From an uncultured Ruminiclostridium sp. (GTDB lineage: Bacteria > Bacillota > Clostridia > Oscillospirales > Ruminococcaceae): 64,000 bases of DNA. This document shows, piece after piece, positions 1,747-60,935 of the stretch. A program made the translations under genes and the position numbers. Numbering within the stretch: the stretch's first letter is position 1; each line of letters opens with the position of its first letter. The notes beneath the pieces were generated by a model that did no database searches, was not told the origin of the DNA, and saw nothing but the letters and a program-made list of their open reading frames with translations. Where the stretch lies: positions 1-64,000 of the forward strand of contig CANRGJ010000001.1 in NCBI GenBank assembly GCA_947630175.1, read 5' to 3'.

Positions 1747-2301
1747 TCAAAAAGTTTTGTCCTTGTTGATCTCGTCGGTGTTTTCCCGTAAAAATCCCTT
1801 TATGTACTCAGCCACATCTGGATTATCCAGCGGGATACCTCCGAGCATATCTTTCATTTGCACGGTGTCAAGCTCAAAGCCCTCGCCGTCCACGCTGTAC
1901 TTGTAGATAAAATCAATATCCGTATTGTAAAGCACCAGAGTCTCAACAGTTGACGGCATATCTCCCAGCGGCATACGGTCTATACTGTCAAGCACATATT
2001 CCGCATTGACCTCAGTCCCTTTTCCTTTTTCGGAGGAAATATTGAAATGTCCTCCTGTCATTTCCGCACTCATCTTGAAGAACGGAACTCCAAGTCCCAC
2101 CTTTCTGGTAGTCCTTGTAGTGTAAAAAGGGTCGGTGACCTTGTTAACGGTGTCCTCGTCCATTCCGCAGCCGTTATCCTTAATGGTTATCGTCAGCCTG
2201 TTTTCGGCAGTGGATATATCAACAGATATCTCAATAAGGGAGGCTTTTGCCTTTATGCTGTTCTGAGCTATGTCCAGAACATTAAGTGACAGCTCTGTCA
2301 T
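1747..2301 (-). CDS. GHKL-type ATP-binding protein of the hydrogenase cluster
   Basis: A 184-aa protein with a stand-alone histidine-kinase-like ATPase fold. The N box (LDIAQNSIKAKAS, about residues 9-21), G1 box (DNGCGMDED) and G2 box (GLGVPFFK) are clear, but there is no dimerisation/phospho-His domain, sensor or receiver. Its start codon overlaps the hndA stop by 1 nt (TAATG), so the two are translationally coupled. Such ATPases recur inside clostridial hnd/hyd operons; the role (assembly, regulation or anti-sigma-like kinase activity) is not known to me. The C-terminal 60 residues are unassigned. Confidence 0.8.
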   Translation of the reverse strand: MTELSLNVLDIAQNSIKAKASLIEISVDISTAENRLTITIKDNGCGMDEDTVNKVTDPFYTTRTTRKVGLGVPFFKMSAEMTGGHFNISSEKGKGTEVNAEYVLDSIDRMPLGDMPSTVETLVLYNTDIDFIYKYSVDGEGFELDTVQMKDMLGGIPLDNPDVAEYIKGFLRENTDEINKDKTF

Positions 2302-7409: not shown

Positions 7410-9467
7410 TTACTTTCTCTTGCGGTAGATCACGATAGCCGCTGCTGCTGCCGCTGCAATGGCAGCAGTTGTTGTAATTCCAACAACACCTGTGTTGGGG
7501 TTGTCTTTTTCACCGCTGTTATCGGTGTTGCCTGAGTCGTCAGAGCCGCTGGGTGCGGTGGTGTTTTCCGAGCTGTCGGAAGTATCGGTGCTGCCAGAGC
7601 TGCTGCCGCCATTTTCTTCAATCTCGTCTGCGGTAACAACATATGTGCTGAAATGGTCGGTTTCAAATACCAGATAGCCGTCCTCGACTCTTACGTTCAT
7701 CTTCACATACTTGCCGTCCTGCAAATGGTAAACCTTGAGAGTGTCAGCAATGTCAAGCATAGCAACGGGAATGGGTATTCTTACCGTTACTGTGTCGGTA
7801 GGCTCGTACTCTTCGCCGTTATAAGTGAAGTAACAGTTATACGCAATGCGTGTTTCGGTAGAGTTTTCCTCGTCTAAGCGAACAGAGAAATGCGCCTGTT
7901 TGGGAATAACGTCAGGCTTTGCGATTACTTCAATATCTGCCGCCTTGTCATCGCTCTCGTCGGTGAATGTATTTGTTTCGGAAGAAACACTGTTGAATGT
8001 GTAGCCGTTCTCTTTTGCAAATGTTTCTGCATAAGAGCCTTCCACGCCGTTGATATTCTTCAGCAGGGAATCCTCAAAAGCCTGCGGATCAATAACAGTT
8101 ACACTTTCGGGAATAGTTATATCTGTGAGCGCAGTATACTGGAATGCCCACTGTCCTATTTCGGTGAGGGTTTCGGGCAGAACTGCCTCATTCAGCTTTA
8201 TGCACATCGAAAATGCGTCTATCGGCAGCTTTGTAATTGTGTCGGGAATAGTTACGGAAGTTATCTGATTGCAGCCTTGGAATGCGCCCTGCTGGATCTC
8301 CGTTACTCCGTCCGCAAATTTCACCTCGGCTTTTCCTGGAGGGCAAGCAACGAGCTCTTTGCCGTCAGCGGTGTACAATACTCCATCAACCGACTTAAAG
8401 TTTTTATTATCAGGGTCAACATTTATTTCGGTCATAGAAGAAGTTTTGTCAAAGACGGTATCACGAGTAAGTGCAAAAGCACATTTGCCTACTGTTTCAA
8501 CGCTTGCGGGGAGAGTTACGGATTTAAGGTCAAGACAGTCAAAAAATGCTCCTCTTTCGATTTCTTTCAGTCCCTCGTTAAGTTCAATTGATGTCAGACC
8601 ACTTTTGCTAAATGCGCTGTCCCCGACAACAGTAATGCTGGTTGGGAGCTTAATTGATTTCAGAGCTGTACATCTGCCAAATGTACACTCCTCGATAACT
8701 GTCAGTCCTTCGGGAAGTTCCACATCTGCAAGCGAGCGTTGTTCATAAAACGCATATTCGTCCAAAGTTTTCAGCTTTGAACCCTCGACAAATTTTACGG
8801 AAGTCAAAGAATATGTATTTGTGAGATCCTTGTCATTATTAAAACCGCCGACCAGGCTATCATCAGTGTTGCCAAATGCGCCGTAAGCGATAGTTTCAAC
8901 GCTTGCGGGGATAGTAATTGACTTCAGAGAACGGCAGTCACAAAAGCCCCACTTGTCTATGAATTTAAGCTGTGAGTTTTCGCCGAAATGTACTTCTTCA
9001 AGTAAAATATCGCCGTTAAACGCAGCTTGATTTATCTTTGTAACGGTGTCGGGGACAGTTATAGAAGAAAACCCTCCCTCGCGTGCTTTTCTGATTTCAG
9101 TAACGGTATAATTGCCGATCTTTTCGGGAATGGTTATCCTGCACCCCTCATGAGCATATTTATTTCCCACGCTCTCTGTTGTAATGTTGATCGTGCTGTC
9201 ACTCAACACTATACACTTGTAATATGCGGCGTATTCAGAACCTGCAGCTTCGTACACATCAGTAGTAGGTTCGCCGACTACTGCGCCCGTGTTGGGGTCA
9301 AATACTGCATAAAATATATCTCCCACGTTTAAGTCCAAAACGGAAGCGGGATCTGTCGTTGCTGCGCTCACTGCTGTGCCGATAGTGGGAAATGCTCCCG
9401 TCGACGGCGCAATGACAGTCAGCGCAAGTGCGGCTGCTATCACCGCGCTTATTTTCCTTAGTGTCAT
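7410..9467 (-). CDS. BspA-like leucine-rich-repeat surface protein with C-terminal sorting signal
   Basis: A 685-aa secreted protein. The start ATG at 9467 follows AGGAGGAC and opens a signal peptide (MTLRKISAVIAAALALTVIA); a longer in-frame reading to 9563 lacks a signal and is rejected. Residues about 110-480 hold repeated LRR_5 (BspA/Treponema-type) units of the form LxSIxIPxSVxxIgxxAF. A beta-rich stretch and a Ser/Thr/Gly-rich linker follow. The end is NPNTG, a hydrophobic Ala-rich helix and RKRK, which is a sortase-type anchor with Asn in place of the first Leu. It probably functions in adhesion or carbohydrate/host-surface contact. It is a single-gene unit with a long structured leader. 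Confidence 0.88.
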   Translation of the reverse strand: MTLRKISAVIAAALALTVIAPSTGAFPTIGTAVSAATTDPASVLDLNVGDIFYAVFDPNTGAVVGEPTTDVYEAAGSEYAAYYKCIVLSDSTINITTESVGNKYAHEGCRITIPEKIGNYTVTEIRKAREGGFSSITVPDTVTKINQAAFNGDILLEEVHFGENSQLKFIDKWGFCDCRSLKSITIPASVETIAYGAFGNTDDSLVGGFNNDKDLTNTYSLTSVKFVEGSKLKTLDEYAFYEQRSLADVELPEGLTVIEECTFGRCTALKSIKLPTSITVVGDSAFSKSGLTSIELNEGLKEIERGAFFDCLDLKSVTLPASVETVGKCAFALTRDTVFDKTSSMTEINVDPDNKNFKSVDGVLYTADGKELVACPPGKAEVKFADGVTEIQQGAFQGCNQITSVTIPDTITKLPIDAFSMCIKLNEAVLPETLTEIGQWAFQYTALTDITIPESVTVIDPQAFEDSLLKNINGVEGSYAETFAKENGYTFNSVSSETNTFTDESDDKAADIEVIAKPDVIPKQAHFSVRLDEENSTETRIAYNCYFTYNGEEYEPTDTVTVRIPIPVAMLDIADTLKVYHLQDGKYVKMNVRVEDGYLVFETDHFSTYVVTADEIEENGGSSSGSTDTSDSSENTTAPSGSDDSGNTDNSGEKDNPNTGVVGITTTAAIAAAAAAAIVIYRKRK

Positions 9468-9520
9468 TTTGTCCTCCTGTTTCTTTTTACGGTTTGTTTT
9501 TTCTGCGCAAATTTTCCGTA

Positions 9521-9691
9521 AAACAAAAAGTGCGCAGCATGAAGCTACGCACGAAAAATGCATAACTCCGATTGCTGCTACACAACCCCGTTACAACTTT
9601 TAAATAAAGTACACAAAAAAAGAGCATGCACTTTTACCATATGGCAAAAAGCGTATACTTTGCTCGAAAAAATATAATATTGTGTAGCAAC
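9521..9691 (-). ncRNA. Structured leader RNA of the LRR gene (possible riboswitch or attenuator)
   Basis: Minus-strand transcript of about 220 nt between promoter and LRR start. At its 5' end 13 nt (9679-9691) can pair, with three G-U pairs, to 9574-9586. Inside this, 9653-9661 pairs with 9606-9614 (9 bp) around a hairpin made from 9631-9638 and 9643-9651. An alternative GAGCA/TGCTC pairing followed by seven T would give an early terminator. After the enclosing helix comes a 9-bp terminator-like hairpin (9530-9552, loop TTCAT) with TTTTTGTTTT. The hairpin's T tract can itself pair with CCGTAAAA near the ribosome site. The layout, a closed domain then a terminator, resembles a riboswitch; I do not recognise a known class. 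Confidence 0.5.
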
Positions 9692-10334: not shown

Positions 10335-10842
10335 CAAATGGAAAAGCGCCACGATTTCCATTTTCCTCAGCAATTTTTAATATTGTTATTGCTTCATATT
10401 GTTACATCCATAAAATTTACATTTTCCAATAAACAATAGCAAAATAAAATGCCAATTCTTTAAAAGTTATTTTATTTATTTCACGTTTAATTACACCTAT
10501 ATTAAAAAATGCTGTTTTTGGAACAATTGGTGTATACTCTAAAAATAAAACTCAAAACTATGTAAAAATCAATACGTTTTTGGTTTTATTAAATGCGTAA
10601 GACTTTTTTCGACAAATTACAACACAAAAATTTACACGTCGTTTTTTTGCGATTAGTTTTTCAGTTTTAAAAATTTATAAAATTTAGATACAACAACTTC
10701 TTTTCCTTTTTAGCAAAAGGTTTAAAATATTTTGAAAAAATATTTAAAAAAATTAAAAAATAACTTGAAATATTATTTTGTTTGTGCTATCATTTAATTG
10801 TGACAGACTTCTGCACAATATCCGAAACAAGGAGAGACATTT
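10335..10842 (+). promoter_or_regulatory. Long AT-rich spo0A upstream region with 0A box and promoter
   Basis: No gene is seen in this 508-nt stretch. It contains a perfect Spo0A box (TTCGACAAA at 10608-10616, the complement of TTTGTCGAA). Nearer the gene is a likely promoter: TTGAAA (10765-10770), a 17-nt spacer ending TGTGC, and TATCAT (10788-10793). The 0A box suggests autoregulation from about 150 nt upstream. No clear sigma-H promoter was found. Confidence 0.6.
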
Positions 10843-11640
10843 ATGAGCAGCTCAAAAGTGCTTATCGGAAACGACATTCCCGACCAGGGAATCGCATGGG
10901 CAAATATGTTAAAGACCGCAGGTGCGTTTGCGGTCACAAGAAAACCTAACGGATTAACGTTACTTCAGTACGTCAAGGAATATTCCATGCCCGATATTCT
11001 TATTATTGAAGCAAAAATGCCTGGGCTTGACGCAGTCGGGCTTTTAAGAGAGTTGAGAAAGCTGGGAGAACTCCCCACAGTTATCGTTACCGCAGACCGA
11101 AGCATGCCTTCCGTTGAGGAGGAAGTAATGTACCTGGGAGCGTCCGCATTTATGGTCAAGCCCTTTGAGCCATCTCAGCTGATGAAGAAAATATCCGAGT
11201 CTAAGACGGGAAAGACCTCTGTTGACAATCTTGACCTTGATAATTATATTAAGGAGCCTTCTCCTCAGCAGGACCTTGAGTGCGTAGTCACCGATATCAT
11301 TCATCAGATAGGCATACCTGCTCACATAAAGGGTTATCATTTTTTGCGCTATGCAATAATGCTCTGCGTTGACAACAACGAAATGATAAACAGCATTACC
11401 AAGCTGCTTTATCCCACAGTAGCCGCACAGTTCAAAACAACTTCTTCGAGAGTTGAGAGAGCCATACGCCACGCTATCGAGCTTGCGTGGGACAGGGGAG
11501 ATGTTGATGTTTTGAATTCATATTTCGGCTATACGATCAGGAGCACCAAGGGCAAGCCCACCAACTCCGAATTTATTGCCCTTATTTCGGACAGGCTCCG
11601 CCTTCAGATAAAACGAGGCGACCTTGCTTTAAAAAGCTGA
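10843..11640 (+). CDS. spo0A: Sporulation master regulator Spo0A with Glu at the phospho-acceptor site
   Basis: A 265-aa response regulator. Residues about 5-115 are a receiver domain. Residues about 143-262 are the sporulation-specific DNA-binding domain with the characteristic IGIPAHIKGYHFLRYAI, RVERAIRHAIE and KPTNSEFIA stretches, fully intact. In the receiver the residue matching Bacillus Asp56 is Glu56 (LIIEAKMPG, codon GAA at 11008-11010), and one of the paired acidic residues is Asn10 (GND instead of DD). Thr83 and Lys106 are kept. The identity as Spo0A is firm. Whether Glu56 makes it constitutively active, inactive or differently regulated is open. The gene is monocistronic, ends at a strong terminator, and is not next to spoIVB. 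Confidence 0.93.
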   Translation: MSSSKVLIGNDIPDQGIAWANMLKTAGAFAVTRKPNGLTLLQYVKEYSMPDILIIEAKMPGLDAVGLLRELRKLGELPTVIVTADRSMPSVEEEVMYLGASAFMVKPFEPSQLMKKISESKTGKTSVDNLDLDNYIKEPSPQQDLECVVTDIIHQIGIPAHIKGYHFLRYAIMLCVDNNEMINSITKLLYPTVAAQFKTTSSRVERAIRHAIELAWDRGDVDVLNSYFGYTIRSTKGKPTNSEFIALISDRLRLQIKRGDLALKS

Positions 11641-11671: not shown

Positions 11672-11704
11672 AAAGGAACACCTTTTGGTGTTCCTTTCTT
11701 TTTT
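11672..11704 (+). terminator. Intrinsic terminator of spo0A
   Basis: A perfect 11-bp stem AAAGGAACACC/GGTGTTCCTTT with a TTTT loop, followed by CTTTTTTTTG. Confidence 0.9.
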
Positions 11705-25897: not shown

Positions 25898-27148
25898 TTG
25901 ATATTTATGATGAAAAAGAAAATAAAAAATATGGCTTTAGCTTTTCTGCTTTTGTTTGCAGCAGTAATTTTCACGTCATGCAGCGCGGAAGAAAAGGATC
26001 AGACATATGATAAGCCGTATCCTGTGCCTGTCTATGATATTTCATTTTTTGACAGTGGCTTTGCTTTAAGCTACCCCTGCGGCTCGTATGACGACAACAG
26101 CTATGATTATAATTTGATGTGCTTAGTGGACTATGACGCCAAGGCTGTGATACCAATGTGTTCCCGACCCGGCTGTGGACATACCGGCAGGGAAAACTGT
26201 GCTGCTGTGAAAAATTATCAGGCGTCACTTGTTTATGGCGGGACCTTTTACGGCTTTATAACCGGGGAAGACAAACAGATAGACAGCACCACAAGACGTC
26301 CTACCATTGACATCGTTGCATCTAACATTGACGGCAGCAATGAAAGAAAATTTGCCTCCGTGGAGGGAATGATATTCGGACTGTCCCGTGTTCCCAGGGA
26401 CAGCTCAATGTTTGTTTATCAGGACTGTGCTTATTTTCCCGTATACGTAAGTGATATGATAAACGGCATAGGAAGCGCCTTTGCCGAGTATCACTTTATT
26501 AGGCTTTCGCTGAAAACAGGTGAGATCACCGACCTGGGAATAATTGCTTCAGGCTATGGGGCATTTGTGACCACTTTGGGTGCGACTGCCGAAAAAGTCT
26601 ATTTTAATGCCACATACCGTGAAGAAAATATAGAATTGAGCGATTTCCAGTCAACGGAAGAATATTTTGAGGCAATAGAAAATGCGAAGGTCATCGAAAA
26701 GTTTCTTTGTATGAATCTGTCGGATGGAGCAATATCACAGGTAGCTCTGCCCGGAATCAGCTTCAGCTCTCGCATTGTTGCAAATACATATTTTTACAGC
26801 GATGAAAACGGCTTTTATAAATACGACCTGCTTACGGGTGAAACAAAAAAGCTTCACGAGCATCCCTGCAATGAGATGTACTATGTTACCGACGACCGTC
26901 TGTTCTATACCTGTGATGAGGAGAATATATCCTTCTCCCATGCTCTGACAGATGAAAGCACATCTGTCATACCGAGCCGCACTGATTCAGTAAATTTCAG
27001 ACCATTTAAGTTCAAGGACGGCTGGTGCTACGGAAATGCGGCAGGACTGTTGGATGACAAAGGAATAGCGGTAATGGCTTACTGCCGGGAAGATGATTAT
27101 TTCAGAAAAGAAAACTGCGAGTTAACAGCTGTTTCGTTTAATGACTGA
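25898..27148 (+). CDS. Lipoprotein with repeated-blade (propeller-like) sequence, function unknown
   Basis: A 416-aa protein with a signal peptide and lipobox (FTSCS). Near residue 85 is a cysteine/histidine cluster, MCSRPGCGHTGRENCAA, which could bind a metal. The rest is a series of beta-rich units of 45-60 residues with Tyr/Phe-rich turns (GGTFYGFI, ENGFYKYDLLTGE, DDRLFYTCDEENI), like a six-bladed beta-propeller. It has no obvious enzymatic motif. It is followed 20 nt later by a solute-binding-like lipoprotein and then an ABC ATPase and permease, so it is probably an extracellular accessory of that transporter. The choice between adjacent ATG codons (25898, 25907, 25910) is uncertain. Confidence 0.7.
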   Translation: MIFMMKKKIKNMALAFLLLFAAVIFTSCSAEEKDQTYDKPYPVPVYDISFFDSGFALSYPCGSYDDNSYDYNLMCLVDYDAKAVIPMCSRPGCGHTGRENCAAVKNYQASLVYGGTFYGFITGEDKQIDSTTRRPTIDIVASNIDGSNERKFASVEGMIFGLSRVPRDSSMFVYQDCAYFPVYVSDMINGIGSAFAEYHFIRLSLKTGEITDLGIIASGYGAFVTTLGATAEKVYFNATYREENIELSDFQSTEEYFEAIENAKVIEKFLCMNLSDGAISQVALPGISFSSRIVANTYFYSDENGFYKYDLLTGETKKLHEHPCNEMYYVTDDRLFYTCDEENISFSHALTDESTSVIPSRTDSVNFRPFKFKDGWCYGNAAGLLDDKGIAVMAYCREDDYFRKENCELTAVSFND

Positions 27149-28617: not shown

Positions 28618-29323
28618 GCTTCAGCTGAAAAACGTCAGCAAGCATTACAGCTCAAAGCTTGCTTTGGACAATATAAGCTGTGAGTTCTCAGTGGGCATAT
28701 GGGGCTTTCTGGGACCTAACGGGGCGGGAAAATCCACCCTGATGAACATTATTGCGGGGATACTTAAGCCTGACGGAGAAAGCGTCGTTTTATACAATGA
28801 AACGCCTGTGCCGCAGCTTGGAAGATCCTATCGTTCCGTAATAGGATATATGCCTCAGCAGCAAAATGTTTTCAGAGATTTTACAGGAGCACAGTTTCTT
28901 TCTTATATGGCCGCATTGAAAGGGATCGACTCCAAAGCCGCAAGAGTGCAGATATCGGAGTTGCTTCAGCGTCTTGAGCTTACGGATATTGCTCACAGGA
29001 GGATAAGCGGATATTCCGGCGGTATGAAACAGCGCATACTGTTGGCTCAGGCTCTTCTGGGCGCTCCCGAGATACTTATACTTGACGAACCCACCGCAGG
29101 AGTTGACCCTAAGCAGCGTGTGATAATCAAAAATCTGATAAAGGAAATTTCGGAGGATAAAATAATTCTGCTTTCCACTCATATAGTATCGGATATAGAA
29201 AAGCTGGCAGACAGGATAGTTTTTCTGAAGGACGGCAGGATAGTTCAGCAGGGAGCCGCCGATGAGCTTCTTGCGGGGACTGAGCTTGAGAGCCTTTATA
29301 TGCGGTATTTTGGTGATGAATGA
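28610..29323 (+). CDS. ABC transporter ATPase (ABC-2/exporter type)
   Basis: A 237-aa ATPase with Walker A GPNGAGKST, signature YSGGMKQRILLAQALL, Walker B ILILDEPTAGVDP and switch STHIVSDIE. The preferred start is ATG at 28610 (GGGAGAAAAAG upstream), overlapping the preceding stop by 8 nt; an earlier in-frame codon at 28586 is less likely. It is followed by the permease with a 4-nt overlap. Confidence 0.88.
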   Translation: MNKLQLKNVSKHYSSKLALDNISCEFSVGIWGFLGPNGAGKSTLMNIIAGILKPDGESVVLYNETPVPQLGRSYRSVIGYMPQQQNVFRDFTGAQFLSYMAALKGIDSKAARVQISELLQRLELTDIAHRRISGYSGGMKQRILLAQALLGAPEILILDEPTAGVDPKQRVIIKNLIKEISEDKIILLSTHIVSDIEKLADRIVFLKDGRIVQQGAADELLAGTELESLYMRYFGDE

Positions 29324-31545
29324 TGAAACTGTTTTTTTATGAGATACGAAAGCTGTTTAAAGGAAAAGCCCCGCTGATATTTTTGTTGGTTATCCTGTCT
29401 GCGGCGTTATTTTTTGACCTGCGGCAGGAATGGGACAGATATTATCCGTATGAAGCCTACGCAAAATTGTGCAATGATGTTTTATCCCTTCCCGAAGGGG
29501 AAAGGGAAAATTATTTAAAGGAAAATGCAGATAAATATAACGCTTTTTACAGCTTCGAATTGGGAATGATCTCTTCTGATGATGAGAAAAACGCTCAGTA
29601 TATCCTCCAATACGAAAACGGCGCAGAGACAATATACACTGACAGCTTTTTCGCTGAATATTCTCTTTTCAGTGACACGTACGAGCAATATACAGATACC
29701 TACCATTATTCGCAGCATATATCGGACATTCTGGCGCAGGCGGAAAAAATGAGTGAGCTTTCGGTGTTCGGCGGCAAAAATTCCTTTGAGCAAAGGAATA
29801 TATCTGCCGCTGCCGCTGCCTATAAGGCGTTAAACGGTTTGACACCCCGCTTTGCTGACACGGCGGGGTTGAATTTTCTGCTCTCCTTTTCCGCCGACAA
29901 GCTTCTCATTCTCGCAGCTGCAGTTTTCGGTGCTTTCGTTATGGTTATGGACGAGCGCAGAACAGGCTCGCTGCGTATCGAAAATGCGACAAAAAACGGA
30001 AGGACTTTTCTTGCTCTGAGCAAGACAGGCGCTGTTTTTGTGTGGTGCGCAGCAAACAGTATACTTTTATTGGCAGTAAAGCTGATAATTACCGCCGCTA
30101 GGTATGACATCTCTGCTATTTTTCTGCCAATACAGTCTTTAAGCGGATTTGTCAACTGCCCTTATGCACTTTCGACGGCGGAATATATTGCCATAGCCTC
30201 AGCATTAGGCTGCTTTTCGGCATTTGTCTGCGCAATGCTGTTTGCGTTTGTTTTCACTTTAAAAAAATATATCATAGGTGGCGCCGCAGGCGTTATATTT
30301 ACAGTCCTGCAATTTGCCGCATATGAAAGGCTTGACGGTTTAAGCTCCCTTGGCGTGTTCAAGTATTTCAATATTTCCGCCGCACTGCATTTTTCTGAAA
30401 CAGGAATGACGTTTACCACCGTAAACCTTTTTCAGGAGCCTGTGGATACCTTTACAGTATCGGTAACTTTTCTGCTGATTTTTGCCTTACTGTTCTGCGC
30501 TTCTTTTGTGTTTTCCTTTGCAGGCTCATATATGGACTTTCAGGGCATTTCCTTAAACATACGCTCATCCCGCATACCGTCTGCAAATTTGTTTTACAGG
30601 GAAGTGTACAGGGTTTTTATCACAAAGGGCGGCCTGGCTGTGCTTATACTTCTGCTTTGCGTGACTGTTTACGACGTAGTAAATGATGATGTTCATTATG
30701 AAGCTGTTGACGGTTACTACGAATTATATCTGAACGATATTGAACAAATGACATTGTCGGAAACCGCCAGTTTCATAAAAGAAGAGGAAAAACGTCTTTC
30801 CGATTTGCAGAACAAGATGTCTGAGCTTAATGAAAGCTATCAGAATGGTAAGATCGCATCGGGCTCTTATGTGACTGCGGCAACTATAATTCAAAGTGAG
30901 CTTGCGAAGCGCCCTGCTCTCAGGCTTTTGTCGGAGCAGTATAGGTATATTTCGGAGGAAGAACCGTCGGCGAACTTCGTTTATTATAAAAAAATCGATA
31001 AATATATGAATTTTGACAACAGCAAAGATGACATAAAGAGTAGTCTGTACACGCAGCTGGCGTTAGTGTTTGTGATATGCACGCTGTTTTCGGGGCTTAG
31101 CATCGAGGAGCGCCGCCTTATTTCCTGCACAGCGGACGGAAAAGGAAAACTGCTGAGAATAAGAACTTATATCTGCATATTGTCAGCAGTGGCAATTTTT
31201 CTTTGCGCAGCTCTTCCCGAGATGATTACTCTGCTTTCTCACAACAGATCTTCAGATCTTTCTGCTGCCCTCCAAAGCCTGATATATTTCAGGGGACTTA
31301 CCGCAAATATATCCATAGGCTTTTATTTCGTGCTGATGTATTTGCTTCGGCTTGCTTCTGTGCTGTTTACCGCTTTGTTCATAGCTTTTATCGGAATTAC
31401 GGTAAAAGAGCAAAAGACAGTAATTGTTTTATGCTCGGTGATAATTCTCTTACCCACAGCGTCAGCGCTTTTATTCGGTCCCGAAGCATTTCCGCTTATT
31501 TATGAATTGGAAAGCAATGCGCTTTTGAGGCGGTTTCTGATTTAA
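29320..31545 (+). CDS. ABC permease made of two fused ABC-2-like halves
   Basis: A 741-aa membrane protein. Residues 1-405 and about 422-741 have the same plan. Each begins with a basic FFYEIRKLF/FYREVYRVF segment and one helix, followed by an extracytoplasmic loop of about 110-150 residues starting with a Tyr-rich motif. Then comes a helix ending in a cytoplasmic loop (DERRTGSLR at 211; EERRLIS at 596) and four to five further helices. A single chain therefore seems to supply both membrane domains, served by the one ATPase. The substrate is unknown. The gene ends the cluster; no terminator hairpin is evident directly after it. Confidence 0.8.
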   Translation: MMKLFFYEIRKLFKGKAPLIFLLVILSAALFFDLRQEWDRYYPYEAYAKLCNDVLSLPEGERENYLKENADKYNAFYSFELGMISSDDEKNAQYILQYENGAETIYTDSFFAEYSLFSDTYEQYTDTYHYSQHISDILAQAEKMSELSVFGGKNSFEQRNISAAAAAYKALNGLTPRFADTAGLNFLLSFSADKLLILAAAVFGAFVMVMDERRTGSLRIENATKNGRTFLALSKTGAVFVWCAANSILLLAVKLIITAARYDISAIFLPIQSLSGFVNCPYALSTAEYIAIASALGCFSAFVCAMLFAFVFTLKKYIIGGAAGVIFTVLQFAAYERLDGLSSLGVFKYFNISAALHFSETGMTFTTVNLFQEPVDTFTVSVTFLLIFALLFCASFVFSFAGSYMDFQGISLNIRSSRIPSANLFYREVYRVFITKGGLAVLILLLCVTVYDVVNDDVHYEAVDGYYELYLNDIEQMTLSETASFIKEEEKRLSDLQNKMSELNESYQNGKIASGSYVTAATIIQSELAKRPALRLLSEQYRYISEEEPSANFVYYKKIDKYMNFDNSKDDIKSSLYTQLALVFVICTLFSGLSIEERRLISCTADGKGKLLRIRTYICILSAVAIFLCAALPEMITLLSHNRSSDLSAALQSLIYFRGLTANISIGFYFVLMYLLRLASVLFTALFIAFIGITVKEQKTVIVLCSVIILLPTASALLFGPEAFPLIYELESNALLRRFLI

Positions 31546-49162: not shown

Positions 49163-50020
49163 TTGATAAACGCCAGAATATGTGGCGGCGAAAGCGTCCT
49201 GCCTTATCTGGGGAGCATAGGTGAAATAATCTCTCGCTCCGACCACCGCATAAGAGATATATGTGAGATACGCCTGCGGGCGGGAATGCCCATAACGCTT
49301 GAAACACTGAACGGGCGCTTTACACTGGGACATAAGACCGCAGTTGAGGAAATAAACGAGTGCATAAAGAGCTTCTGCCGTTTTTCCCTCCACAGCTACG
49401 AAAGGGAACTGAAGGAAGGCTACATAACCCTTAAAGGCGGTCACAGAGCAGGCTTTTGCGGCAGCGCCGTAATAAAGAACGGCGTTATGGAAACGCTGAA
49501 AAACATCAGCAGTATCAATATCAGAATAGCAAGGGAGATCACAGGCTGCGGCGAACAGCTTTCTCCTATCGTTTTTTCCGATACCTTCACAGGCCTTGTT
49601 ATAGCGGGAAAGCCGATGAGTGGGAAAACCACTCTTTTGCGGGATCTTTGCCGAATAATAGGCGGCAGACACAAATTAGCGGTAATAGACAGCAGAGGCG
49701 AGATTGCCGCCTCCTATTGCGGACTTCCACAGAACGACGTAGGCGTTTTCACCGACGTTCTCAGCGGCTATGACAAGCGGGAGGGGATAGAGATAGCCAC
49801 CCGTGTCCTTTCCCCCGAATACATAGCCTGCGACGAAATAACAGGCGACCGTGAGATAACCAAAATGTGCCTTGACAGCGGCGTAAAAATGATCTTCACA
49901 CTTCACAGCGGCACGATGGAACAGGCAAAAAGCTCGGAAATTGCCAAAAGCGGAGCGATAAGCCACATCGCCTTTTTAGGCGGAAAAACAGGACAGGTCA
50001 CCGAAAGGGCGGTGCTTTGA
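49163..50020 (+). CDS. spoIIIAA: Stage III sporulation protein AA (ATPase)
   Basis: A 285-aa secretion-type ATPase thought to power the SpoIIIA-SpoIIQ channel between mother cell and forespore. The Walker A is AGKPMSGKTTLLRDL; DSRGEIAAS, DEITGDRE and FTLHSGTMEQA follow. It starts at TTG with GGGAAGTGA upstream and is the first gene of the complete eight-gene operon. Confidence 0.95.
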   Translation: MINARICGGESVLPYLGSIGEIISRSDHRIRDICEIRLRAGMPITLETLNGRFTLGHKTAVEEINECIKSFCRFSLHSYERELKEGYITLKGGHRAGFCGSAVIKNGVMETLKNISSINIRIAREITGCGEQLSPIVFSDTFTGLVIAGKPMSGKTTLLRDLCRIIGGRHKLAVIDSRGEIAASYCGLPQNDVGVFTDVLSGYDKREGIEIATRVLSPEYIACDEITGDREITKMCLDSGVKMIFTLHSGTMEQAKSSEIAKSGAISHIAFLGGKTGQVTERAVL

Positions 50021-50518
50021 ATGAACATTGTTTTTTCCCTTATCGTGATTTTCCTTGGAGCATTGGCGGGTCTGCATTTTTCCCGACGCTTAAAGGAGCG
50101 TGAACGCCTTATCTCCGTCATAATGCTTCTGGTAAAGGAATTAACGGTAAAGATAAGCTACACCAACACCGAGATAGGCGATATGCTGAGATACGCCTCC
50201 GAGGAACAGACATACAGCGACCTCTTGTTTGTAAAAAACTGCTCTCTGATACAGGAAAACGGCGATTTTCACAGCGAATGGGAAAAAGGCGTCAAGGAAC
50301 AGCCTTTCCTTGATACAAGGGACAGAGAGCTACTTTTCGCCTTGGGAGAAAAGCTGGGAGAAACAGACGGCGACGGGCAGCTTTCTTTTCTTGAAATGAC
50401 CTTGGAAATGCTTGAAAAACAGCACGAACAAGCGCTTGAGGATTACCGCCGAAAGGGCAGGATGTATCGCTCGGTAGGCGCTTTGTGCGGACTTGCCCTC
50501 GGAATAATGGTTTTGTAG
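50021..50518 (+). CDS. spoIIIAB: Stage III sporulation protein AB
   Basis: A 165-aa protein with N-terminal and C-terminal hydrophobic helices around a helical core similar to GspF-type domains (LVKELTVKISYTNTEIGDML). It follows spoIIIAA with no gap. Confidence 0.9.
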   Translation: MNIVFSLIVIFLGALAGLHFSRRLKERERLISVIMLLVKELTVKISYTNTEIGDMLRYASEEQTYSDLLFVKNCSLIQENGDFHSEWEKGVKEQPFLDTRDRELLFALGEKLGETDGDGQLSFLEMTLEMLEKQHEQALEDYRRKGRMYRSVGALCGLALGIMVL

Positions 50519-50527
50519 GAGAAGAAT

Positions 50528-50722
50528 ATGGATGTGGATCTTATATTTCAAATCGCGGCGATAGGGATAGTGGTCGCGGTGCTGAATATGCTGCTCCAGC
50601 GCTCAGGCAGGGAGGAGCAGGCAATGATGACCACGATAGCGGGACTTATAGTGGTGCTTATGATGATTATCACACAGATAAGCCTGTTGTTTGATACGAT
50701 AAAGCAGGTCTTCAACCTTTGA
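50528..50722 (+). CDS. spoIIIAC: Stage III sporulation protein AC
   Basis: A 64-aa protein with two membrane helices (residues about 4-24 and 32-55), typical in length and sequence (FQIAAIGIVVAVLNMLLQRS). Confidence 0.92.
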   Translation: MDVDLIFQIAAIGIVVAVLNMLLQRSGREEQAMMTTIAGLIVVLMMIITQISLLFDTIKQVFNL

Positions 50723-50737
50723 TATGCGAGGAAGAAT

Positions 50738-51127
50738 ATGAACATAGTCATCATAGCCTCCACTGCGCTTATAGCCTGCGTACTTTCTATTGTCCTCCGC
50801 CAGTACAAGCCCGAATACTCGCTTTTCATCTCAATAGCGACAGGCATTCTGATTTTTCTTGCAGTATTTGCAGTGATAGGACCCTTGCTGGATTTTGTGA
50901 AAAACCTCACCGAAGGGGCAGGACTGGACGGCATATACGCTCAGGTGCTGATAAAATCTCTTGCTGTCTGCTATATAACTCAGCTTGCCTGCGACTGCTG
51001 CGTGGACTCGGGAGAAACCGCGATAGCGGGAAAACTCCGTATAGCGGGAAAGATCGCCGTTTTGCTGATTGCGCTTCCTATGTTTGAGGGACTTGTCCAA
51101 ATAGTAAGCGACCTTATAGAAATTTGA
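50738..51127 (+). CDS. spoIIIAD: Stage III sporulation protein AD
   Basis: A 129-aa protein with about four membrane helices. It resembles AC in its first half (ALIACVLSIVLRQYKPEYSL) and is followed by SLAVCYITQLACDCC. It is a predicted membrane component of the channel. Confidence 0.92.
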   Translation: MNIVIIASTALIACVLSIVLRQYKPEYSLFISIATGILIFLAVFAVIGPLLDFVKNLTEGAGLDGIYAQVLIKSLAVCYITQLACDCCVDSGETAIAGKLRIAGKIAVLLIALPMFEGLVQIVSDLIEI

Positions 51128-51144
51128 CATAAAAACGAGGAATT

Positions 51145-52257
51145 ATGAAGAGAAAAGGAATTTTAAAGCTGACAACAGGATTTGTCTGCGCATTTATTCT
51201 TTTTTCATCAGGCGTTTGCGCCGAAGAAGAGTATGATTTTGGCGCAGATGAAATATACGATGCTCTTCCCGATGGAACGGCGGATACCCTGGACAATCTG
51301 GGAGTTACCGTAGAAAACGGCGGAGGCGGTCTGACAGCGGAAAACATTTTTTCCTATCTTTGGGATATTGTGGCGAGCAGTTCCGCCAAGCCGCTTACAA
51401 TGCTTGCTTCGGTAGCGGCGGTTATTATGCTATGTTCTGTTACCAACGCTATGAATACTGATAACGGCGAGCTTAACGGGGTTTTCGGCACTGTGGGGAT
51501 ATTGGCGTGTTCGGGACTTATCTGTACAGGCTTTGCCTCAGTGCTTGAAACGTCTAAGACCGCCGTGGAATCATTGTCCGCCTTTCTTTCAGTATACATT
51601 CCCGCCTTTGCGGGAATTATGGCGATAAACGGACAGACTGCTACCGCCGCAGCTTATAACGGCACCGTCATAGTTGCCACACAGCTTTTATCGCAGATAT
51701 TTTCAGCGATCGTCTTTCCCCTGACCTCCTGCATAATGGGAATCTCCGTAGCAGGAGCAGTAGACCCCGATTTAAAAATAAGCAATTTGTCAGAGGGAAT
51801 AAAAAAACTGATAAATTGGGGACTCGGGTTGATAATGACGATCTTTGCAGGTCTGCTTTCAGTTCAGAGCTTTGTGGGAGCAGCGTCTGACACAGTATCT
51901 ATGAAAGCGGTCAAGTTCACCGTTTCAGGTGCGATACCGATAGTAGGCGGAGCAGTCTCAGACGCCCTTTCTACCGTAAAAAGCAGTCTTCACCTGCTGA
52001 AAGCCGCAACAGGATGCTTTGGTATAATTGCTTCAGCGGCGGTGATATTGCCCGTTCTCATATCCGTCGTACTTTTAAGAATATCAATGATGATATGCGC
52101 TTCTCTCAGTGATTTATTCGGAACATCAAGGCTGACTCCTCTTTTGAAAAGCGCAGAAAGCGTTCTGGCAATAATGATCGCCGTTATCGTATCCTTCTGG
52201 ACGATAGCCGCCGTATCCACAGCGCTTATCCTTGCCATAAGCGGAGGCACGGTATGA
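51145..52257 (+). CDS. spoIIIAE: Stage III sporulation protein AE
   Basis: A 370-aa multi-helix membrane protein with an N-terminal signal sequence (residues 1-25) and a short extracytoplasmic region rich in Asp/Glu. Conserved stretches are SVYIPAFAGIMAINGQ and VGGAVSDALSTVKSSL. It is the largest membrane subunit and overlaps spoIIIAF by 4 nt. Confidence 0.93.
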   Translation: MKRKGILKLTTGFVCAFILFSSGVCAEEEYDFGADEIYDALPDGTADTLDNLGVTVENGGGGLTAENIFSYLWDIVASSSAKPLTMLASVAAVIMLCSVTNAMNTDNGELNGVFGTVGILACSGLICTGFASVLETSKTAVESLSAFLSVYIPAFAGIMAINGQTATAAAYNGTVIVATQLLSQIFSAIVFPLTSCIMGISVAGAVDPDLKISNLSEGIKKLINWGLGLIMTIFAGLLSVQSFVGAASDTVSMKAVKFTVSGAIPIVGGAVSDALSTVKSSLHLLKAATGCFGIIASAAVILPVLISVVLLRISMMICASLSDLFGTSRLTPLLKSAESVLAIMIAVIVSFWTIAAVSTALILAISGGTV

Positions 52258-52724
52258 GAGAAACTATTTTGTCGATTGCTCTTACCGCCATTGCCGCAGG
52301 AATATTCAAGCTGCTTATGCCCGACAGCAGTTTTAAAAAACAAATAGCCTTCCTGACAGCGTGTTTTTTTGTTATAAGCTGTATAAATCTTATAAGCGGT
52401 GGTTTTGATTTGTCTGAACTTGAAGCCTTTACACATGATGAAGGAGCATACGTTGATTTTTCTGTCGAGGCATACAGGCTGACCCAGACTGAAATAGCCA
52501 ACGAGCTGGCAAGAGATTTGAAAGAAAAACTGCGTGAAAAACAAATATCCGTTGATGAAATTTATGTTATCATTGATATTTCGTCATCATACAGCATATC
52601 TATTAAGCAGGTACGGCTTGCCTTTTCCTCAGATAACGCATCATATTCAGCTGCCGCCGAGGAGCTTGTCACAAAGGAGGTAGGAGATGATATCGAGATA
52701 ATTACCGAAATAAAGGGAAGATGA
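52254..52724 (+). CDS. spoIIIAF: Stage III sporulation protein AF
   Basis: A 156-aa protein with two N-terminal membrane helices (residues about 5-22 and 30-48) and a soluble C-terminal domain resembling ring-building motifs. It overlaps AE (ATGA) and AG. Confidence 0.88.
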   Translation: MRETILSIALTAIAAGIFKLLMPDSSFKKQIAFLTACFFVISCINLISGGFDLSELEAFTHDEGAYVDFSVEAYRLTQTEIANELARDLKEKLREKQISVDEIYVIIDISSSYSISIKQVRLAFSSDNASYSAAAEELVTKEVGDDIEIITEIKGR

Positions 52725-52735
52725 AAGGAATAAAG

Positions 52736-53170
52736 ATGAAAAAGCTGTCGGAATTGTTGAAAAGCGAAAAAGGAAACAAAATAATTTTTGCCGCAGGTAT
52801 TTTCCTTATCGCAGTTATATTCCTGCTGAGCATTACAGGAAGCGGCAGTTCAAAGCAGCCTGAGAAAGAGGAGAAAAACGTCATTTCTCAGGTGGAGGAA
52901 TACGAGCAGCGGCTTGAACAGCGGCTCACAGGAATAATAAACAGCATTGAGGGTGCAGAAAACGCAAAGGTAATGATAACTCTTGAGCGCACGGAAGAAA
53001 ACATATATTCCGACAGAGAAACCTCTGTGACGGCAACAGTCACGCCTACCGTCCGTGGGGCGGTGGTGATATGCGGCGGAAGTGAAAGCGCAGTGGTAAG
53101 GCAGAAAATTTCAGACGCAGTATGCAAGGCGCTGGGTATCAGCGCCGCAAGGGTCTGCGTGACCTATTAA
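52736..53170 (+). CDS. spoIIIAG: Stage III sporulation protein AG
   Basis: A 144-aa ring-forming protein of the mother-cell-forespore channel. One membrane helix (about residues 20-38) is followed by an EscJ/PrgK-like ring domain (KVMITLE, AVVICGGSESAVVRQKI). It is shorter than the Bacillus protein (about 229 aa). ATG at 52736 is preferred to the ATG at 52721 because AAAGGAA lies 7 nt before it. Confidence 0.88.
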   Translation: MKKLSELLKSEKGNKIIFAAGIFLIAVIFLLSITGSGSSKQPEKEEKNVISQVEEYEQRLEQRLTGIINSIEGAENAKVMITLERTEENIYSDRETSVTATVTPTVRGAVVICGGSESAVVRQKISDAVCKALGISAARVCVTY

Positions 53171-53191
53171 ACTTGAAAGAGGGAATTTTTT

Positions 53192-53785
53192 ATGAAAAGA
53201 AGAAGACTTAATCTGATAATCGGAAAAAAGCAGATAATCATCGTCGGTCTGACGCTGATACTCGGCGTAGCCGTTTACGTCAATTTCCTGGTGGGGAGCA
53301 AAATGACCGAGGATAAACCCACTTCCGCTTATGATGAGGACGACAGCAAGAACGTGGGAAATTACGGCGACCAGCAGTTTGTTTCTTCAGGCGGAAATTC
53401 ATCGTCGGGAAGCCAGAACGTATCCAACACCAACGCAGATGAATTTTTTGCTCAGGCGAGACTGGATAAAGAGGCAAGCCGTGCCGAGGCTGTCGAAGTG
53501 CTTCAGAGCATTTACAGCGGCGGAGACGCTACCGAAAACGAGCTTGCGGTATTTGCTCAGGACGCAGCAAATCTCAGCGGCTACATAGAGAGTGAAAGCA
53601 AGATAGAAAACGTGCTTAAAGCTCAGGGTTTTTCTGACGTTTTGTGCTATCTTTCAGACAGAGGAGCCAGCATTATCGTAAAAACAGAGGGACTTGATGC
53701 GGCTCAGGCGGCGCAGATAAAGAGTGCACTTTTGTCCGAGGTGAATATCCCTGCTGAAAAAATAACAATTCTTGAAATAAAGTAG
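53192..53785 (+). CDS. spoIIIAH: Stage III sporulation protein AH
   Basis: A 197-aa protein with one N-terminal membrane helix (residues 12-31), a Ser/Gly/Asn-rich linker and a C-terminal YscJ-like domain (EVLQSIYSGGDATENELAVF, SIIVKTEGLDAAQ). It partners SpoIIQ across the intermembrane space. It is the last gene of the operon. Confidence 0.92.
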   Translation: MKRRRLNLIIGKKQIIIVGLTLILGVAVYVNFLVGSKMTEDKPTSAYDEDDSKNVGNYGDQQFVSSGGNSSSGSQNVSNTNADEFFAQARLDKEASRAEAVEVLQSIYSGGDATENELAVFAQDAANLSGYIESESKIENVLKAQGFSDVLCYLSDRGASIIVKTEGLDAAQAAQIKSALLSEVNIPAEKITILEIK

Positions 53786-53887
53786 TTGTTTATTTTTACA
53801 TTTTGTGGTATAATGTTCTAAGAAGTGTGTCCTGATATTCAAATATCTTTTTTGAACTCAGGATACGGGAACATTATACCTTTTTTC
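53786..53887 (+). terminator. spoIIIA terminator overlapping the promoter of the next gene
   Basis: A perfect 12-bp inverted repeat, GGTATAATGTTC (53807-53818) and GAACATTATACC (53869-53880), followed by TTTTTTC. Inside are nested TCCTGA/TCAGGA and TTCAAA/TTTGAA stems. The left arm also holds TATAAT (53809-53814), with TTGTTT 17 nt upstream (53786-53791), a plausible promoter for asp23. A transcript from spoIIIA would fold the whole hairpin; one starting near 53821 would lack the left arm. Confidence 0.65.
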
Positions 53888-53939
53888 TTTGTCCGCTGAT
53901 AGCTTTTGTGAAAGAAAAATATATTCGGAGGAATATCTA

Positions 53940-54305
53940 ATGGATAAACAATCTGCATCATCTGGGAGCATAAAGGTCTCCAACGACGTTATCGCAAGGA
54001 TAGCTCTGCTTGCGGCGGCAGAAATATCAGGAGTTGCCCTTGACGACGAGGGAAGACTCCTTACAGCGCAGTCAGGCATCTTAAAGCCAAAGCTCTCAAG
54101 ACCGGTAGTAAAAGTCACCGTTGCAAAGGAAGCCGCCGTTATCGACATCTCTATAATCACCGAGCAGGGAAGCAAAGCGGTCAACGTTGCTGCTCAGGTA
54201 CAGGAGAGCGTAAAATCTTCCGTTCAGAGTATGACGGGCGTCCCTGTTTCCAAGGTGAATGTGAACATAGTCGGGATAAAAATGCTCAGGGAAGAACATC
54301 AGTGA
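53940..54305 (+). CDS. Asp23/Gls24-family envelope stress protein
   Basis: A 121-aa Asp23 (DUF322) protein with the typical core VIARIALLAAAEISGV and a long C-terminal helix (QVQESVKSSVQSMTGVPVSK). The start ATG at 53940 has GGAGG 8 nt upstream; an earlier in-frame codon at 53889 is rejected. Proteins of this family associate with the membrane under cell-envelope stress. It is followed by nusB 46 nt later, a common gene order. Confidence 0.9.
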   Translation: MDKQSASSGSIKVSNDVIARIALLAAAEISGVALDDEGRLLTAQSGILKPKLSRPVVKVTVAKEAAVIDISIITEQGSKAVNVAAQVQESVKSSVQSMTGVPVSKVNVNIVGIKMLREEHQ

Positions 54306-54351
54306 TCGTCTCCGCACCGCAGGACACATTATTAACAAACTGGAGAATAAA

Positions 54352-54756
54352 ATGACAAAACACGAAATGCGAGAGGCAGCTTTTATAATTTTATATCAGA
54401 TGGAGCTGACGGGACAGACGGCGGAGGAAATAGCCGAAACCTCAAACGAGGCTTTTGAACTTCCCGTAAACAAAGCTGTCCTCAGACTTGCTCAAAGCGT
54501 ATGGGAAAAAAAGGACGAGCTGGACGCCGCAATAGGAAAATACAGTCCGTCAAGAGCCGTCGCCAGAATATCAAAGGTAGATCTTGCTATCCTCAGAATT
54601 GCGGCGTACGAGCTTATGTTTGACGGGAACAACGTCCCCCCAAAGGTCGCCATAAACGAAGCCATCGAATTGTCAAAGGCATACGCCCAGCAAAATGACA
54701 AAGCGTTTATAAACGGTGTTTTGAATTCATTGTTTAAGGATATTCAGACAAAATGA
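54352..54756 (+). CDS. nusB: Transcription antitermination factor NusB
   Basis: A 134-aa all-helical RNA-binding protein for rRNA antitermination and processing. The conserved segments EMREAAFIILYQME and VPPKVAINEAIELSKAY are present. CTGGAGAA precedes the start. It overlaps xseA by 4 nt. Confidence 0.95.
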   Translation: MTKHEMREAAFIILYQMELTGQTAEEIAETSNEAFELPVNKAVLRLAQSVWEKKDELDAAIGKYSPSRAVARISKVDLAILRIAAYELMFDGNNVPPKVAINEAIELSKAYAQQNDKAFINGVLNSLFKDIQTK

Positions 54757-55934
54757 GCCTTATCGTAACAGTATCCGAGGTCGTAGAGCATCTTGCCGTT
54801 CTTCTTGACAGCGACAGATTGATAAGAAATATTTCCGTCAGGGGCGAGATATCAGACTGCACGGATAAAGGAAACATATTTTTCACCCTTAAAGAGGGCG
54901 ATTGCAGTATAAAAGCCGTAATGTTCAGAAGCTATGCGGCAAACTTGACTTTTGAGCCGCAAAAGGGTATGAACGTTATAGCAAACGGTTCTGTCCGCCT
55001 GTATAAAAGGGACGGCGTTTTTCAGATCTACGTTACTGAACTTATTCAGGACGAAGGCATAGGTGACGGACTCCTTTCCTTTGAACAGCTTAAAAATAAG
55101 CTGAACAGCGAGGGCTTGTTCGACAGAAAACGTCCCATACCGCCAAATCCCCGCACAGTATGCGTTGTGACCTCTGAAACAGGCGCAGCCATACAGGATA
55201 TAAAAAACGTTATCTCCCGCCGAAATCCGTTTGTAAAGCTTATCCTTGTGCCTGTACTGGTACAGGGTACAGATGCTCCCGCCTCAATAACAGCGGGAAT
55301 TGAAAAGGCGCAGAACACAGACAGCGACGTTATAATTTTCGGACGGGGCGGCGGTTCTTCCGATGATTTGTCGGCATTTAATGCGGAAATAGTCGCCCGT
55401 GCAGTATTCAACAGCCGTATCCCCACAATTTCTGCGGTGGGGCATGAGATAAACCGCACCATAGCCGATTTTACAGCGGACAAATATGCGCCCACGCCAA
55501 GCGCCGCCGCTGAGATAGCAGTTCCCGACATAAACGAGGTCAGAAAATATATTGTGGGCACCAAAAGCTACTTATACGGCAAATTGCAGAACAGACTTAA
55601 AAGCGCCGAGGGAGAGCTTAACTCTCTGAAAAAGCTCATCTCTCTTCACGACCCTTTTCTGAGAATTGAAGAAGAACGTCGCTCACTGAAAAACATTTCT
55701 TCCGTTTTGAAGAGGGAAATGCTTGCGGTGATAAACGCAAAAAGTACACAGCTTGTTTCCGCAGCAGAATTGTTGAACGCCTTGGACCCTATGCAGACTC
55801 TTTTGCGTGGGTATTCGGTAGTTTATAACGAAAAGGGCATTGTTTCTTCTGTCAAATCGGTAAAGGCAGGAGAAAAAATAACGGTAAAAATGTCAGACGG
55901 AGAGTTTAACGCCGTCGTTGAAAAGGAGCAGTAA
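54753..55934 (+). CDS. xseA: Exodeoxyribonuclease VII large subunit
   Basis: A 393-aa nuclease subunit. It opens with an OB-fold (VRGEISDCTDKGNIFFTLKE). The catalytic domain contains VVTSETGAAIQDI, FGRGGGSSDDLSAFN and AVGHEINRTIADFTAD, and a coiled-coil region follows. The length is normal. xseB starts immediately after. Confidence 0.95.
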   Translation: MSLIVTVSEVVEHLAVLLDSDRLIRNISVRGEISDCTDKGNIFFTLKEGDCSIKAVMFRSYAANLTFEPQKGMNVIANGSVRLYKRDGVFQIYVTELIQDEGIGDGLLSFEQLKNKLNSEGLFDRKRPIPPNPRTVCVVTSETGAAIQDIKNVISRRNPFVKLILVPVLVQGTDAPASITAGIEKAQNTDSDVIIFGRGGGSSDDLSAFNAEIVARAVFNSRIPTISAVGHEINRTIADFTADKYAPTPSAAAEIAVPDINEVRKYIVGTKSYLYGKLQNRLKSAEGELNSLKKLISLHDPFLRIEEERRSLKNISSVLKREMLAVINAKSTQLVSAAELLNALDPMQTLLRGYSVVYNEKGIVSSVKSVKAGEKITVKMSDGEFNAVVEKEQ

Positions 55935-56108
55935 ATGACTTACGAATCGGCGCTTGAGCGTCTTAATGAAATAACATCTCAGATGGAAGACCCTGAAATT
56001 ACGTTAAAAAACGCCGTTGACCTTTATGCAGAGGCGAAAAAGCTGATAGAATTCTGTACGAAATGCATTGACGAGGCCAAGCTGGAAGTGGAGAAGATAG
56101 GGGAATGA
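55935..56108 (+). CDS. xseB: Exodeoxyribonuclease VII small subunit
   Basis: A 57-aa protein reading MTYESALERLNEITSQMEDP through LEVEKIGE. It is the all-helical XseB family that binds the coiled coil of XseA. AAAAGGAG lies 6 nt upstream, the start directly follows the xseA stop, and the stop overlaps ispA by 4 nt. It is short (the family is usually 60-80 aa) but complete. Confidence 0.92.
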   Translation: MTYESALERLNEITSQMEDPEITLKNAVDLYAEAKKLIEFCTKCIDEAKLEVEKIGE

Positions 56109-56989: not shown

Positions 56990-56999
56990 GTGAAAATTT

Positions 57000-57488
57000 G
57001 TGAAGGAATATGTAAATGTAGTGCTGCTCGTCTCCGTTATAAGCTGGGCAGTAGCTCAGTTGATAAAAGCGGCGATATACGCTGTGAAATACAAGACGTT
57101 CAGCCCTGAGCGATTGTTCGGCTCAGGGGGAATGCCATCGTCACATTCCTCAACGGTCTGTGCGCTTGTTATCACGGTTTACCGCCTTGACGGATTTAAC
57201 TCGGTGACCTTCGGCCTTGCGGCGATACTTGCGATGATAACGATGTATGACGCAATGGGCGTTCGGCGCGCCGCAGGACTGCACGCACAACAGATAAACC
57301 GTTTAAGGCATATCGTTGACGAACTGGACGAGGAAATGCTGGATAATATTGACGAAAAGGTGGACGATGACCCTGAGGACACCAAAGAACTGAAAGAATT
57401 TCTGGGACATACGCCTTTGGAGGTTATTTTCGGCGCACTGCTGGGCATACTTATAGGTATAATTTTTCCTACCGATTATTTTATGTGA
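57000..57488 (+). CDS. yuiD: Divergent PAP2-family membrane protein
   Basis: A 162-aa protein with about four membrane helices and a motif GSGGMPSSHSSTVCAL like acid phosphatases of the PAP2 class. It starts at GTG with AGGTG upstream. Its place between ispA and dxs suggests action on polyprenyl phosphates; the biochemical role is unproven. Confidence 0.82.
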   Translation: MKEYVNVVLLVSVISWAVAQLIKAAIYAVKYKTFSPERLFGSGGMPSSHSSTVCALVITVYRLDGFNSVTFGLAAILAMITMYDAMGVRRAAGLHAQQINRLRHIVDELDEEMLDNIDEKVDDDPEDTKELKEFLGHTPLEVIFGALLGILIGIIFPTDYFM

Positions 57489-57517
57489 TAAATGTTTAAT
57501 GTTAGGGGCGAAAAGTA

Positions 57518-60050: not shown

Positions 60051-60058
60051 GGTGAATT

Positions 60059-60922: not shown

Positions 60923-60935
60923 CGGAAATTTTATT

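Follow-up and report, generated by a model that had tools for sequence, protein, structure and literature searches.

Recurring loss of phosphorylation chemistry in the sporulation regulator Spo0A of an uncultured Ruminiclostridium species and its relatives

Spo0A of an uncultured Ruminiclostridium sp. and its relatives displays a recurring loss of phosphorylation chemistry that is specific to this regulator and occurs in a lineage that keeps its sporulation genes. The species, a gut bacterium, is known here from genomes alone, and its spo0A gene lies in the stretch of DNA that we analysed, the first 64,000 nucleotides of contig CANRGJ010000001.1 (assembly GCA_947630175.1), which we call the window. 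The standard view has phosphorylation of a conserved Asp as the step that activates Spo0A (available sections of PMC11210211 and PMC3533761). Most likely, the window's protein is a phosphorylation-independent Spo0A that is set by its amount or by a partner, the main rival being that Glu at the acceptor position mimics phosphate. The features discussed are as follows, by position in the window.

10843..11640, plus strand: spo0A, 265 aa, the sole Spo0A_C protein found in the genome (TIGR02875 233.2 bits, cut-off 200)
10870..10872, plus strand: codon 10, AAC, Asn, first of the acidic pair, with Asp11 retained (codon reading, alignment)
11008..11010, plus strand: codon 56, GAA, Glu, the phospho-acceptor position (codon reading, alignment)
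11014..11016, plus strand: codon 58, Lys, acceptor +2 (alignment)
11092..11094, plus strand: codon 84, Ala, in the conserved Thr/Ser column, with Thr83 as the preceding codon (alignment, profile, model)
11158..11160, plus strand: codon 106, Lys, the conserved catalytic Lys, retained (alignment)
11287..11598, plus strand: Spo0A_C DNA-binding domain, intact (PF08769)
10608..10616, minus strand: exact 0A box TTTGTCGAA, beginning 235 bp upstream of the spo0A ATG
10765..10793, plus strand: weak promoter-like TTGAAA-17-TATCAT with TG ahead of the second hexamer (motif scan)
11672..11697, plus strand: terminator-like stem-loop and T run 3' of spo0A (sequence scan)
49163..53785, plus strand: spoIIIAA-AH sporulation operon (Pfam)

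The protein is a Spo0A by sequence, with its receiver recognised as such (PF00072 54.8 bits, cut-off 30.2) and Spo0A_C matched over 104/104 positions (PF08769 150.2 bits, cut-off 25). Several matches put the DNA-binding domain at 56-58% identity to solved Spo0A C-terminal domains. A first-pass annotation of the window, made from the letters alone, had reported Glu56, Asn10, and retention of Lys106, Thr83 and the whole DNA-binding domain. Codon counting and alignment agreed with all of these except Thr83: the column of Glu56 is Asp in 67 of the 68 Spo0As sampled from the phylum outside the order, but gap-free alignment puts Thr83 in a Leu column (Leu in 65/68 phylum sequences), and the Thr/Ser column (T in 60, S in 8 of 68) is filled by Ala84. 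A profile built from phylum receivers likewise sets Ala84 on the conserved Thr, and Ala84 is the final residue of strand beta-4 (79-84) as modelled by AlphaFold2. A contrary register was given by phmmer: aligned to a designed CheY-like protein, Thr83 falls on the Thr by way of a gap in alpha-4. In Foldseek, the model as a whole (mean pLDDT 86.5) finds many receivers as well as the Spo0A C-terminal structures 1lq1 and 1fc3, and its pTM of 0.50 arises because the two domains are not fixed relative to each other.

Of the five catalytic residues, three are therefore altered (Asn10, Glu56, Ala84) and two retained (Asp11, Lys106), which leads us to describe the window's Spo0A as an aspartate-less pseudo-receiver on an intact DNA-binding domain. 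Pseudo-receivers are defined in PMC12632262 as recognised receivers in which one or more of the five residues is missing, and here three are; aspartate-less receivers are those with no Asp at the acceptor (PMC4395418), as with Glu56. The residue set of a phosphorylation-activated Spo0A (Asp, acidic pair, Thr/Ser, Lys) is broken at N10, E56 and A84. Loss of the normal phosphorylation target, which the annotation had claimed for Glu56, thus goes deeper than was proposed, and the options that it listed as remaining (regulation through amount, through a partner or through neither) are reasonable, given that two catalytic residues out of five survive.

Compared with known systems, the protein resembles Bacillus and Clostridium Spo0A (TIGR02875, PF08769) in domain order, in its DNA-binding domain (with 1lq1 and 1fc3 as the best solved matches), in receiver fold, in the exact 0A box upstream and in its link to sporulation genes, and differs from them by the changes of Asp56 to Glu, Asp10 to Asn and Thr to Ala. 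In missing the Asp and other pocket residues it is like the pseudo-receivers ChxR, RitR, HP1043, FrzS and GlnR (available sections of PMC4395418 and PMC12632262), and it shares with aspartate-less receivers the Glu replacement and the retention of Lys and an aromatic residue (Phe103); unlike in those five proteins, the output domain here is Spo0A_C. Spo0A appears nowhere in the text of PMC12632262, and the available parts of PMC4395418 mention it twice, once in the title of reference 36, and name no Spo0A as a pseudo-receiver. A literature search that covered few subscription papers listed none on a Spo0A without a phospho-acceptor. Pseudo-receivers are a known kind, whose switching is called a mystery in the available part of PMC12632262; what is new here is the place of one on the sporulation master regulator.

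We compared 302 Spo0A frames (1 from the window's genome, 63 from the genus, 80 from named relatives, 90 from the order and 68 from the phylum outside the order), which came from searches of 71 genus, 197 order and 199 phylum genomes. The order and phylum sets combine the 30 best-scoring loci per search with 60 and 40 picks, respectively, at about one per genus or family, and these picks were drawn from the listed best rows and are therefore high-scoring rather than random. One sequence from the phylum draw was reassigned to the order, and one from each set was left out (L207 for the phylum; L222, broken by a stop, for the order). Residue counts for the genus omit 7 of the 70 frames at 68 loci, which have fewer than 101 residues ahead of the C-terminal domain, and the named relatives (Oscillospiraceae, Ruminococcaceae and Ruminiclostridium among them) overlap the genus set, as with L032/G067.

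Alignment of relatives, which the annotation had proposed as a check, indicated that the altered acceptor is not confined to the window's protein. The acceptor column holds 67 Asp and 1 Gly in the phylum sample (n=68); 69 Asp, 12 Glu, 7 Asn, 1 Trp and 1 Ser in the order (n=90); and 35 Glu, 19 Asp, 7 gaps and 2 Ser in the genus (n=63). Pseudo-receivers, meaning sequences with one or more of the five residues missing, make up 2/68 phylum and 61/90 order sequences (one in each set merely without its N-terminus), 55/80 named relatives and 61/63 genus frames. Lys58 is found in 52/63 genus frames vs 0/68 phylum sequences. Phosphorylation may persist in many relatives, because Asp56 is kept in 69/90 order and 19/63 genus sequences.

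The named isolates L045, L053, L058 (Anaerotruncus), L083, L085 and L066 keep Asp56, but their Lys106 has given way to Met, Val, Ile or Ser, and they have either a broken acidic pair or Asn10. Of the seven isolates checked, six are pseudo-receivers and all seven have Asp56, so there is no cultured example of Asp56 loss in this sample. Faecalispora jeddahensis JCD (L083) combines Asn10 and Val106 with a retained Asp56, and this strain, as Clostridium jeddahense JCD, is described as spore-forming in the available part of PMC4148971.

On a tree of 93 rows from which the active-site columns were excluded, a quick build with 31 of 89 inner branches open, residue 56, scored as Asp, Glu or other, switches state 13 times or more, and 7 times within the 64 rows of the genus and the window's own protein. 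The window's clade comprises 15 rows, all with Asn10 and 13 with Glu56, and the two Asp56 species (G063, G019) are nested inside it. In five species of another clade (G064, G066, G069, G036 and G065) the main Spo0A is without residues 56-58; second Spo0A_C frames from four of the five have no acceptor Asp or no full-length receiver. Several genus genomes of the L036-type deletion (L141, L142, L147, L148) carry extra Spo0A_C proteins with an unusable or wholly eroded receiver, and an exact 0A box lies some 200 bp upstream of L141, L142 and L147. Across 53 genus rows, residues 56 and 106 occur as Glu/Lys in 34, Asp/Arg in 15, Asp/Lys in 4 and Glu/Arg in none. This pattern suggests a fixed charge pair that may stand in for metal and phosphate, and we offer it only as a suggestion because it comprises 2 independent contrasts on supported branches, a number too small for a phylogenetic test.

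These distributions bear on the idea, also raised by the annotation, that Glu56 is a built-in phosphate mimic, which paired with Lys106 would hold the protein constitutively in its active form so that only its amount is regulated. Glu is the commonest acceptor replacement in aspartate-less receivers, at 26% (available sections of PMC4395418), and can mimic phosphate (PMC4395418 and PMC12632262, in part), and the near-constant length of the 56/106 pair in the genus, with Glu/Lys in 34 and Glu/Arg in none of 53, would fit such a design. Yet the Thr that the mimic would contact is Ala84, Asp-to-Glu by itself is described in the available text of PMC4395418 as insufficient to activate Spo0A, two Asp56 species sit within the Glu56 clade, five species without any residue at 56 keep SpoIVA, a SpoIIE-like protein and SASP, and the pair pattern reduces to the same two contrasts. 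Mimicry by Glu56 is possible in itself, although the data do not require it, but the Asp56 reversions, the 56-58 deletions and PMC4395418 make it insufficient as a full account, and we consider it a rather unlikely explanation of the whole.

Sporulation genes are present in the same genome: SpoIVA scores 708 bits, SASP is found, a full-length SpoIIE-like protein reaches 254.7 bits vs a cut-off of 490.8, and the SpoIIAA-SpoIIAB-SigF and SpoIIGA-SigE-SigG gene sets are in place. Several early proteins score below curated cut-offs (SigF 193/321, SpoIIAA 76/115, SpoIIGA 134/210), so the wider sporulation module is divergent. In the window's spoIIIA operon AA, AB, AC, AD, AE and AH exceed their Pfam cut-offs, and AF and AG, assigned by position, fall below theirs. 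Downstream of the operon, within 49163-63069, lie ORFs encoding a polyprenyl synthetase, DXP synthase, an FtsJ/S4 methyltransferase, NAD kinase and a RecN/SMC-like protein. Genes spoIVB and spo0A often come after recN; among the ORFs of 120 aa or longer that follow the recN-like gene (L344), neither was recognised by eye, so spo0A seems to have been relocated, to a site about 50 kb away.

For the genus we tabulated SpoIVA, SpoIIE and SASP in the 54 of 71 genomes that have a full-length Spo0A, leaving out the other 17, filtering by completeness (at least 90%) alone and scoring SpoIIE present at E < 1e-30, although 0/71 genomes reach its curated cut-off. All three markers occur in 19/22 Glu56, 5/5 deletion and 11/14 Asp56 genomes, and in 24/27 of the genomes without Asp56. 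Two Glu56 genomes (G007 and G042) have none of the three, so Spo0A can persist without sporulation markers. Conversely, G046 (98% complete) has SpoIVA, SpoIIE-like and SASP matches and no good Spo0A match (best E 1.6e-23), as a result of either an assembly gap or true absence. Among 197 order genomes, Spo0A_C was found in 188 and SpoIVA in 187, with both missing from 6, Spo0A_C alone from 3 and SpoIVA alone from 4; the joint absence gives a Fisher value of 2e-7 that ignores kinship, four of the six genomes being from one genus. Each of the 21 aspartate-less Spo0As of the order sample lies in a SpoIVA-positive genome, 16 of them as the sole Spo0A_C protein.

The two halves of Spo0A have evolved at different rates. 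For the DNA-binding domain, mean pairwise identity is 0.72 in the genus, 0.72 in the order and 0.70 in the phylum; for the receiver it is 0.43, 0.30 and 0.55, respectively. The receiver of the window's clade is nevertheless under purifying selection: dN/dS is 0.03 between the window's receiver and its 98%-identical relative, and over the 12 pairs with usable dS, most others being saturated, the medians are 0.11 for the receiver and 0.019 for the DNA-binding domain. That the receiver or sporulation itself is being lost, with Spo0A kept for another task or by inertia, could account for the faster receiver, for the low scores of several early sporulation proteins and for G007 and G042; selection on the receiver, the full spoIIIA, spoIIA and spoIIG gene sets of the window's genome and the conserved 0A boxes upstream speak against such decay, and we regard it as improbable.

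We also considered the other signalling proteins of the genome. It has 28 receiver matches, of which we inspected 15 besides Spo0A. All 13 that were fully readable keep all five residues, and the visible residues of 2 further, partly covered ones are canonical, so the erosion is, as far as seen, specific to Spo0A, and decay of receivers across the genome is rejected. The annotation had called for a survey of the phosphorelay; for its Spo0F part, the 28 matches include no stand-alone receiver of Spo0F size, the smallest open frame being 209 aa. The 24 ATPase matches comprise 10 plain kinases, 6 hybrid kinases, 1 SpoIIAB and 7 unclassified matches. Each of the 10 plain kinases has a response regulator 1.0-1.7 kb away, so that none of them is seen to be an orphan, the type that usually activates Spo0A in clostridia. 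This arrangement is like the clostridial activation of Spo0A directly by kinases without Spo0F or Spo0B in having no Spo0F-sized receiver, and unlike it in that the acceptor Asp is required there and absent from the window's Spo0A (available sections of PMC11210211 and PMC3533761).

Spo0A could in principle still be phosphorylated on Glu56, Thr83 or another residue, given that Lys106, Asp11 and the fold persist and that the genome has many two-component kinases. With the acidic pair and the Thr/Ser position broken and no plain orphan among the ten plain kinases (6 hybrids and 7 unclassified ATPase matches remain), we judge this very improbable.

The annotation had also named findings that would have changed its reading, and each came out in its favour. 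The genome (2.70 Mb, 46 contigs, estimated completeness 100%) holds a single Spo0A_C match, so a second canonical Spo0A is rejected, and so is an alternative Asp at the acceptor site, as the alignment has none in that column. A sequencing error at codon 56 is excluded because Glu56 and Asn10 recur in other genomes of the clade, one 98% identical; with Glu56 in 35 of 63 genus frames of other genomes, the chance that the draft state (46 contigs) produced an artefact of sequencing or assembly is negligible.

The DNA around spo0A offers some indication of how the gene may be controlled. Using the 0A box consensus, we identified TTTGTCGAA as the only exact 0A box in the window, against a chance expectation of 0.93. 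In the 400 bp upstream regions of the genus, exact boxes occur in 18/54 (0.3 expected from single-letter shuffles) and 0A cores in 38/54 (2.6 expected), mostly 200-260 bp ahead of the start. Asp56 relatives also have 0A boxes upstream of spo0A, and four of the five deletion species have none within 400 bp; the box is therefore no proof of control by amount. The upstream boxes show that the DNA target has been kept and make autoregulation likely, but they do not show what replaced phosphorylation. In the stretches examined around spoIIA, spoIIG, spoIIE and spoIVA there is no exact box, and we have rejected boxes elsewhere as proof; 7-base cores were found before spoIIGA and inside the spoIVA stretch, one in each. 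The promoter-like site is weak because 7 such sites occur in the region vs 4.8 expected.

Further upstream of spo0A, beyond tRNAs, the window encodes a 717-aa BspA-type leucine-rich-repeat surface protein (7410-9563, minus strand) and a 184-aa protein (1747-2301, minus strand) in which Pfam recognises a HATPase domain alone, without a kinase dimerisation part, and which may be anti-sigma-like or a kinase remnant. Two ORFs without a Pfam match, 25898-27148 (416 aa) and 29320-31545 (741 aa), flank a solute-binding protein. A plasmid search returned 4 records, all below 60% identity.

Together, these data lead us to favour, with moderate confidence, a Spo0A that has been freed from aspartyl phosphorylation and whose DNA-binding half serves sporulation, set by amount, by a partner or by both. 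In this model, activation by aspartyl phosphate would have been lost with the change of the acceptor to Glu, of one metal-binding acid to Asn and of the Thr/Ser to Ala, leaving an atypical aspartate-less response regulator that may still serve the sporulation programme through its DNA-binding half. The receiver would persist as a folded domain whose role is probably dimerisation or the binding of a partner, and activity would come mainly from the amount of Spo0A, by autoregulation through the upstream 0A box, and/or from a partner protein. Because the acceptor and its pocket have been lost while the sporulation genes are kept, the lineage probably triggers sporulation in another way.

More tentatively, we propose that across the order Spo0A is being released from aspartyl phosphorylation yet still starts sporulation, with its acceptor repeatedly replaced (the 13 or more state changes) and deleted in one clade. 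In the genus, a charge pair of fixed, constant length (Glu56-Lys106 or Asp56-Arg106) together with Lys58 would replace metal and phosphate, and sporulation would be decided by amount or partner and not by a phosphate signal. In the available parts of the literature, the accepted decision point for sporulation in endospore formers is the phosphorylation of Spo0A at a single conserved Asp. If our reading is true, that decision would be possible without the acceptor Asp, the lineage would provide natural experiments on how pseudo-receivers work, and genome-based prediction of sporulation in gut commensals would change.
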